Shown: in pieces, positions 50,339 through 56,592 of the stretch
Position numbering within the stretch: the stretch's first letter is position 1
How the letters are laid out: every line of letters begins with the position of its first letter
Origin: Nitrososphaerota archaeon
GTDB lineage: Archaea > Thermoproteota > Nitrososphaeria > Nitrososphaerales > Gagatemarchaeaceae
Assembly: GCA_027887045.1 (NCBI GenBank)
Contig: JAPCJH010000002.1
Coordinates: 322,723-386,722 of the forward strand
Direction: 5' to 3'
Length of the DNA stretch: 64,000 bases
Translations under genes and position numbers: made by a program
The notes under the pieces: model-generated
Seen by the model: only the letters and a program-made list of their open reading frames with translations
Told to the model about the DNA's origin: nothing
The model's database searches: none

Positions 50339-50524
50339 CTTTGTAAGTGAATGAACACGAAGAATCCCAATGTATCCTATGTTCTGTCACCTTGTTCAGA
50401 CATTGGTAGGATTTCGGAGCATCGCCAATTTCTCCTAAACAAACTGTCGAGACTTGCCTCCCATTTCCATGTTCCACTTATTTCGTTATCGTCTGGTAGA
50501 AAGCCGCGGTCCGAGCCAGAACTG

Positions 50525-50824
50525 CGGGGATGAGTTGAATCAAGACAAACGATTTTATCACTTGATTGTAGACTCATGTTAGTTGTTTTCGATCAATGAA
50601 CTCCACCAGTACTCCTCAACAGTGAGACGTGCATTTCTCGAGAAGCTGGCAAGCCTGCCTTGGGAGACTATAACTAAGAACCGTGAAGCCAGCTACTACA
50701 GCATGAAGGACATAATGCTTCACATGATAGACAACGAAGACATGGTCGTGAGCCGCCAGATTCTCAAGGTGCCTGACTACAAGAGGGCACGCGACTGGAA
50801 GGAGTACGGGGACATGCGCATGAT
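50525..50824 (+). repeat. Segmental duplication, copy A (intact DinB-like gene 5' part)
   Basis: About 300 bp containing the promoter, inverted repeat, TTG start and first ~80 codons of the DinB-like gene; over 90 percent identical by eye to 55385-55682. Identity ends abruptly after GACATGCGCATGAT in both copies. Confidence 0.85.
50538..50567 (+). promoter_or_regulatory. TATA box flanked by inverted repeat
   Basis: AATCAAG (50538-50544) and CTTGATT (50561-50567) are perfect inverted repeats on either side of the TATA element GATTTTATCA (50551-50560), which lies 27 bp before TTG 50583. A repressor bound here would block TBP. The duplicated copy keeps one arm intact and has one change in the other. 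Confidence 0.5.
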
Positions 50825-51089
50825 CAGAGAGCACCTCGATGAGGTCGAGAAAAGGACCAAGGCTTACCTGGAAAGTGCGGACGAGAAGGAGCTGGGAAGG
50901 CGAGTAACCTTTACGGTTAGTTCTGGATCCTTCGACCTCTCAGCCGAAGAGTGCCTGATGCAGTCATTCACGGAACAACTGTACCACTTGGGCGAACTGA
51001 TCGCCTTGCTCTGGCAGGAGAACATCGAACCCCCAAGAATGCAATGGTTCTGGAATAACCCTAAGACACAGACCTCTGACCATTCCTAG
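50583..51089 (+). CDS. DinB-family four-helix protein
   Basis: 168-residue DinB/YfiT-like protein, a fold used by metal-dependent thiol transferases and hydrolases. It begins MFSINELHQYSSTVRRAFLE; the metal-binding His candidates are in IMLHMIDNEDMV (about residue 47) and in TEQLYHLGELIALLW (about residue 136), the latter being the usual C-terminal His-helix. The TTG start is leaderless with respect to the TATA element. Its first half is duplicated, truncated, at 55440. It may be a thiol-linked detoxification enzyme given the redox genes nearby, but no substrate can be named. Confidence 0.75.
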   Translation: MFSINELHQYSSTVRRAFLEKLASLPWETITKNREASYYSMKDIMLHMIDNEDMVVSRQILKVPDYKRARDWKEYGDMRMIREHLDEVEKRTKAYLESADEKELGRRVTFTVSSGSFDLSAEECLMQSFTEQLYHLGELIALLWQENIEPPRMQWFWNNPKTQTSDHS

Positions 51090-55201: not shown

Positions 55202-55207
55202 CTTCTG

Positions 55208-55265
55208 CTCGAGATCTCGAGGCTAGTCGTGGCTATTAAGCCCAGAGCATACCGACTCAGTCGGT
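55208..55265 (-). promoter_or_regulatory. Promoter with two perfect palindromes
   Basis: CTCGAGATCTCGAG (55208-55221) covers the predicted transcription start and ACCGACTCAGTCGGT (55251-55265) lies upstream of the TATA-like CTTAATAGCC (55231-55240). Both are self-complementary and resemble operators for dimeric regulators. Confidence 0.5.
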
Positions 55266-55384
55266 CCTATTGCGAAAGGGACCAGTCTGTCTATTGGGCA
55301 GCACAAAACAATGTCAAGAGCCAGGGTGAGGGCATGATTTCGCTAATCGTTTGGCAGGAGCTCGCGGTCCAAGAGGGAACTGCC

Positions 55385-55682
55385 AGGGGATGAGAGTCAA
55401 GACAAACGATTTTATCACTTGATTGGAAACTAATGATAGTTGTTTTCGATCAACGAACTCCATCAGTACTCCTCAACGGTGAGACGAGCATTTCTCGAGA
55501 AGCTGGCAAGCCTGCCTTGGGAGAGCATAATCAAGAACCGTGAAGCCAGCTACTACAGCATGAAGGACATAATGCTTCACATCATAGACAACGAAGACAT
55601 GGTCGTGAGCCGCCAGATCCTCAAGGTGCCTGACTACAAGAGGGCACGCGACTGGAAGGAGTATGCGGACATGCGCATGATG
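55385..55682 (+). repeat. Segmental duplication, copy B
   Basis: Second copy of 50525-50824, carrying the same TATA element (GATTTTATCA, 55408-55417), TTG start and ~80 codons. Homology stops at the junction with an HxlR reading frame near 55680. Confidence 0.85.
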
Positions 55683-55703
55683 ACCTTAGCTCATGCCCGA
55701 TAA
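55440..55703 (+). pseudogene. Truncated DinB-like duplicate
   Basis: 87-codon frame whose first ~80 residues match the intact DinB-like protein at 50583 with a handful of changes (for instance ETITKN to ESIIKN, HMID to HIID), then MMTLAHAR and a stop. It lacks the second half and the C-terminal His helix, so it cannot form the four-helix metal site. Its promoter is intact, so the fragment may be transcribed and drive the HxlR-like frame behind it. Confidence 0.85.
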
Positions 55704-56077
55704 CGGTCGGATTCCGGATCCTCGGGAAGCGGTGGACGATAGAGATCACCCGGCAGCTTTTCCTGGGCGACTCGAAGTTCAACGAGTTGCTTAGGAATAC
55801 CCCCGGGGTCAACCCGAGGATGCTGTCCTTGAGGCTGAAAGAGCTAGAGGAATACGGTCTGGTCAGTAGAAGCGTTTCGAATAGCTCACCCGTTGAAATC
55901 AGGTATGAGCTAACAGGAATAGGACGAGACATCGTTCCCGTCATGTACTCTATGGCGGAGTTCACGATGAAGAACTTCCCCGTAGAGGTCTTCGACGACG
56001 GCGTAAGTCGCACTCCTCTCGAGGTGACCAACGAAATAGGGTCGAACGAGAAGCGACGTCGCCACTTCGATTTCTAA
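55682..56077 (+). pseudogene. HxlR-family winged-helix regulator lacking its start
   Basis: The frame reads DLSSCPITVGFRILGKRW, TIEITRQLFLGDSKFNELL, TPGVNPRMLSLRLKELEE and YGLVSRS, the complete HxlR DNA-binding domain with the N-terminal sensing Cys (CPxTV), then a short C-terminal tail. Upstream in this frame there is no ATG, GTG or TTG before 55787, which lies inside the winged helix. The native 5' end was replaced by the out-of-frame DinB segment. Either dead, or translated by frameshift or a non-standard start. Confidence 0.8.
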
Positions 56078-56145: not shown

Positions 56146-56592
56146 ATGCAGACAATCGGGACGGCTGCCACTGAGTTTCAGGACATTCGCGGATGGATTA
56201 ACTCAGAGCCCTTGAAACTCGCAGAATTGAGGGGGAAGGTCGTCTTCCTCGACTTTTGGACTTATTCTTGCGTGAACTGAGTCCGCTCTCTGCCGTATGT
56301 GAAGGACCTCCACGAGCTATACGCTCGCAACGGCCTCGTGGTAATTGGTCTACACACCCCAGAGTTCCCGTTCGAGAGGGATCCCAACAGAGTCGCAAAC
56401 GCCGTGGAGAAGACGGGCCTGCGGTACCCCATCGCCTTGGACAGCGACAACACAACCTGGAAACTGTACGGCAACCAATACTGGCCGCGCCAGACGTTGA
56501 TAGACGGCAAAGGCATCATCAGGTTCGAGCATATCGGAGAGAGCGACTACGAAGTGATTGGGAGCAAGGCGAAGGAGCTTCTCAGAGAATGA
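56146..56592 (+). CDS. Thioredoxin-like redoxin with in-frame TGA at the second active-site Cys
   Basis: Reading through TGA at 56278-56280 gives 148 residues of the redoxin family related to TlpA/DipZ domains. Codons 36-50 read DFWTYSCVN-TGA-VRSLPY, where relatives have WTYSCVNCxRxLPY, so TGA (codon 45) replaces the second Cys of CxxC. Downstream, GLVVIGLHTPEFPFERDP and YWPRQTLIDGKGIIRFEHIG (cis-Pro loop) are intact and no other stop occurs before TGA at 56590. Options: selenocysteine insertion, a C-to-A nonsense change (TGC to TGA) in a gene-decay area, or a base-call error. A GTG at 56299 could make a truncated product without the active site. Confidence 0.75.

Follow-up and report, generated by a model that had tools for sequence, protein, structure and literature searches.

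In the 64,000-nucleotide stretch of Gagatemarchaeaceae DNA analyzed here (the window), the second copy of a dinB gene (dinB2) breaks off after about half its length and is followed directly, in a different frame, by the body of an hxlR gene that has no start of its own. This arrangement is probably the product of an older dinB duplication followed by a recent deletion into hxlR, after which no useful HxlR protein would be made. Rather than a new regulatory circuit, the locus most likely represents a gene pair of ordinary kind that died recently. Its features, in window coordinates, are as follows.

50480 to 50582, forward strand: sequence preceding dinB copy 1, including its promoter (alignment).
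50583 to 51089, forward strand: intact dinB paralogue (copy 1), 168 amino acids (PF12867/PF05163).
55336 to 55393, forward strand: diverged 5' stretch of the duplication, with its homologue at 50480 to 50536 (local alignment).
55394 to 55439, forward strand: putative promoter and leader of dinB copy 2, differing from copy 1 at 5 of 46 nucleotides.
55440 to 55703, forward strand: dinB' open reading frame of 87 amino acids, comprising DinB codons 1 to 80, junction residues and a TAA stop (frame, alignment, model).
55681 to 55682, no strand: dinB/hxlR junction; the repeat ends at 55681, and the hxlR-alignable codons DLSSCPI begin at 55682.
55682 to 56077, forward strand: hxlR pseudogene, a winged-helix body without start, promoter and first ~15 codons (PF01638; orthologue alignment).
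55787 to 55789, forward strand: first ATG, GTG or TTG of the HxlR frame (a TTG), at residue 36, inside helix 33-39.
56146 to 56592, forward strand: thioredoxin/TlpA-like gene with an in-frame TGA at 56278 to 56280 (domain search, homologue alignment).

The two dinB copies share a direct repeat of 288 nucleotides (50537 to 50824 versus 55394 to 55681; 94% identity, spacing 4857), and the remaining direct repeats in 12 kb are ≤28 nucleotides long with 71 to 81% identity. The 3' boundary of the repeat is sharp, at 50824/55681. At the other end, homology continues between 50480-50536 and 55336-55393 with lower identity and small gaps (local alignment score of 44; the highest of 500 shuffles reached 23), giving a surviving duplicated segment of ~345 bp. 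The repeat described in the initial annotation, ~300 bp copied from 50525 to 50824, is therefore real, but the homology extends further upstream than was claimed. The repeat segment is present at exactly two sites in the whole genome searched, which is that of a soil archaeon and comprises 1.2 Mb in three contigs (55.6% complete).

Copy 1 is a complete DinB-family gene (PF12867, E = 2.2e-8) and is 76% identical over its full length to the outgroup homologue L039. Its predicted structure consists of helices 4-23, 41-60, 78-98 and 121-145. The reading frame of the second copy runs from the TTG at 55440 to residue 80-81, continues for a few junction residues and stops at the TAA at 55703. Residues 1 to 80 of dinB' are ~91 to 93% identical to the intact paralogue. 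Ending where it does, dinB' does not have the four-helix bundle and metal-site residues that define membership of the family, and by the model of copy 1 the stub would lack the last two of the four helices.

From 55682 onward the sequence aligns with hxlR in a frame other than that of dinB', which bears out the earlier description of an out-of-frame joining. No stop interrupts the HxlR frame between 55634 and 56077, and its first ATG, GTG or TTG after 55634 is the TTG at 55787; a single CTG (55652) lies upstream of the HxlR domain in this frame. In the predicted structure of the fragment starting at 55682, the TTG at 55787 is residue 36, in the first helix of the helix-turn-helix (residues 33 to 39) and just before the recognition helix (residues 45 to 57), and a start at this codon would already lose two helices. 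The statement that no usable initiation codon precedes the winged helix was thus correct. There is no reinitiation codon near the dinB' stop, and no slippery heptamer in the overlap at 55630-55703, not even one with a single homotriplet. A programmed -1 frameshift was rejected because the overlap lacks a heptamer of the form X XXY YYZ.

The HxlR frame reads LQEG at 55634 to 55645, 20 codons before the conserved Cys and nearly as in the N-terminus of the orthologue at locus L003. These nucleotides are dinB DNA, and the coincidental resemblance might lead annotation astray. Recombination at this common string was rejected, as the same DNA occurs in dinB copy 1 and the match is attributable to chance.

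The HxlR domain in the 55634-56077 frame is complete (PF01638, E = 3.3e-22; alignment profile against the PDB entry for YybR, E = 3.4e-24). Over the query it is 68% identical to the orthologues L003/L024, and the body at 55682 to 56077 is 65% identical to L003. These orthologues, together with L025, L026 and L027, are intact and share the N-terminus LQE...NL..C. Comparison with these relatives revealed the ancestral start, a TTG 18 to 20 codons upstream of the conserved Cys. From this N-terminus the window retains DLSSC alone, so the hxlR promoter, start codon and ~15 codons are gone, and the earlier claim that HxlR has lost its own start is confirmed. In the relatives, TATA-like elements lie ~30 nucleotides before the hxlR TTG, a spacing that would be compatible with leaderless mRNAs. 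Relative to the intact orthologues, the window copy has its winged-helix domain, carries a disabling lesion and lacks a complete open reading frame with a start before the domain.

The remaining hxlR body is undamaged: all residues invariant among orthologues are present, and its 131 codons contain no stop. The open frame is nevertheless not evidence of function, because only 0.1 to 0.3 stops would be expected by chance at 1 to 2% neutral divergence, the value suggested by the dinB' part. In L003 (2224 to 2655, reverse strand) and L027 (943 to 1452, reverse strand), a small membrane-protein gene with KALRYAR or KTLRYAR near its start is divergent from hxlR and is a candidate target of the regulator. 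This gene was not found in the 55.6% complete genome of the window.

The age and history of the truncation can be approached through the substitutions in the two dinB copies, which differ with a dN of 0.021 and a dS of 0.20, the latter based on 12 differences. When changes were polarized with L039, six were derived in copy 1, three in copy 2 and three were ambiguous, and the differences from this outgroup number 50 for copy 1 versus 47 for copy 2. By this measure, the truncated copy is not accelerated. Had copy 2 been neutral since duplication, ~18 amino-acid changes would be expected at dS 0.2, compared with at most 2 to 4 that are possible (Poisson probability of 3e-6 to 1e-4). Because dN is low relative to dS and the truncated copy shows no acceleration, dinB2 very probably existed as a full-length paralogue for most of the period after duplication. 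The noncoding part further upstream is more diverged between the copies than the coding part, in agreement with an older duplication of the full gene and a recent cut. The numbers are small and their direction is clear: copy 2 appears to have worked for most of its life and to have been cut recently.

The following sequence of events would account for these observations. An older duplication would have left two full-length copies of dinB under similar promoters, with copy 2 lying upstream of hxlR in the same direction. A recent deletion, spanning from about codon 81 of dinB2 to about codon 16 of hxlR, would then have taken out the 3' half of dinB2 as well as the hxlR promoter, TTG start and ~15 N-terminal codons, leaving the out-of-frame join at 55681/55682. 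Deletion would be the simplest such event; no strain with an intact dinB2-hxlR pair is present among the genomes searched. Any mRNA initiated at the remaining dinB2 promoter would encode an 87-amino-acid half-DinB stopping at 55703.

The leader regions of both dinB copies (50537 to 50582 and 55394 to 55439) contain an identical 29-nucleotide block, TCAAGACAAACGATTTTATCACTTGATTG, and five of the 17 remaining leader nucleotides, all outside the block, differ. A TATA-like TTTTATC lies ~26 nucleotides upstream of the dinB TTG start in both copies. A transcript is plausible because the block and its TATA-like element are identical in both copies, and the dinB2 locus may still be transcribed. A predicted donor promoter therefore does stand upstream of hxlR, and the promoter capture proposed by the initial annotation is possible at the level of RNA, but an HxlR protein of useful length is not expected, since translation from the dinB2 start ends, in a different frame, at 55703. 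None of the dinB orthologues compared had the 29-nucleotide block upstream, and the dinB promoter seems to be lineage specific. Nothing credible was detected as an RNA element at the locus.

The gene downstream of hxlR is also affected. In the thioredoxin/TlpA-like gene, the TGA at 56278 to 56280 replaces the second Cys of the CxxC motif (SCVN*VRSLPY), for which all nine homologues have TGC or TGT. Neither tRNA-Sec nor a selD above the cutoff was found in the 55.6% complete genome, and no SECIS-like RNA was found at the locus. A nonsense mutation, and with it a second broken gene, appears likelier than selenocysteine, and the in-frame TGA makes the locus look decayed.

Several other explanations were considered. 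In one, the ~345-bp promoter and dinB fragment was copied straight onto hxlR in a single step, replacing its 5' end, and the repeat end does coincide exactly with the junction. A fragment dead at birth should, however, gather many amino-acid changes, and the low dN/dS and lack of acceleration of the truncated copy make this course of events unlikely. The one-step pasting of 300 bp originally envisaged finds no support: both copies bear the marks of purifying selection, the homology is longer, and the truncated copy does not have more derived changes than its intact counterpart. That a dinB fragment was inserted into hxlR was rejected because no trace of the hxlR N-terminus lies upstream: in a six-frame search of 55202 to 55439, no hit exceeded the 95th percentile of shuffled sequences. 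An artefact, whether chimeric assembly at 55681 or a minor error masking an in-frame DinB'-HxlR fusion, is quite unlikely. The genome is incomplete and known from its assembly alone, and no second genome has the junction, but the copies differ at ~17 of 288 positions, giving an assembler little reason to confuse them, and both lie on one 580-kb contig. Several neighboring genes near the junction (FmdA, DUF1326, PpoB2 and DsbA-like) are full-length, which implies that indel errors are infrequent here.

Functional promoter capture, with HxlR made from a noncanonical start (CTG 55652 or another) or as a DinB'-HxlR fusion through a -1 frameshift, is very unlikely. The identical 29-nucleotide promoter core, the undamaged HxlR body with all of its invariant residues and the stop-free frame from 55634 count in its favor. 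They are set against the absence of ATG, GTG and TTG before 55787, the lack of a slippery heptamer in the overlap at 55634-55703, the loss of the start and N-terminus that orthologues conserve, and the broken gene downstream. That HxlR, expressed in either of these ways from the captured dinB2 promoter, was rewired to the signals controlling dinB is highly improbable. Of the two possibilities originally left open, a dead regulator is very likely, in view of the missing start, promoter and ~15 codons and of the failure to find any frameshift signal or replacement start.

Among 400 genomes of the order, the dinB-hxlR junction occurs in the window's own genome alone, no orthologue has the same arrangement, and no viral contig contains the junction. 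The literature search found nothing relevant on HxlR pseudogenes in archaea. The closest HxlR orthologue comes from Thaumarchaeota archaeon palsa_1368, assigned to the same family as the genome of the window; Palsa-1368 is counted in Gagatemarchaeaceae (group I.1c soil Thaumarchaeota), a lineage reported to grow by progressive gene duplication (PMC10640624). The locus illustrates on a small scale, and with an approximate relative date, the decay of duplicate genes in this lineage. Automatic annotation would probably call an 87-amino-acid DinB and a short HxlR from 55787, both of them misleading, and the lesson is that, once the start codon is lost, an intact promoter and an open frame together are not enough for a regulator.

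Compared with HxlR-family regulators (PF01638; YybR 4a5m, YodB 5hs7 and HxlR 7bzd), the window copy shares the winged-helix body and the Cys-Pro-Ile at the start of the domain but is without a start codon, its own promoter and the first ~15 residues. Residues 1 to 80 of dinB' likewise resemble DinB/YizA-like four-helix bundle proteins (PF12867 and PF05163; YizA 2qe9), from which the stub differs in having neither the third and fourth helices nor the conserved C-terminal His (FTEQLYH). The dinB-hxlR pair was not seen in the other genomes searched, and the locus differs in nothing of kind from pseudogenes and fusions produced by short deletions between neighboring genes. As in those cases, a codirectional pair has lost the 3' part of one gene and the 5' part of the next, the remnants are joined out of frame, and one intact paralogue of the first gene is kept.
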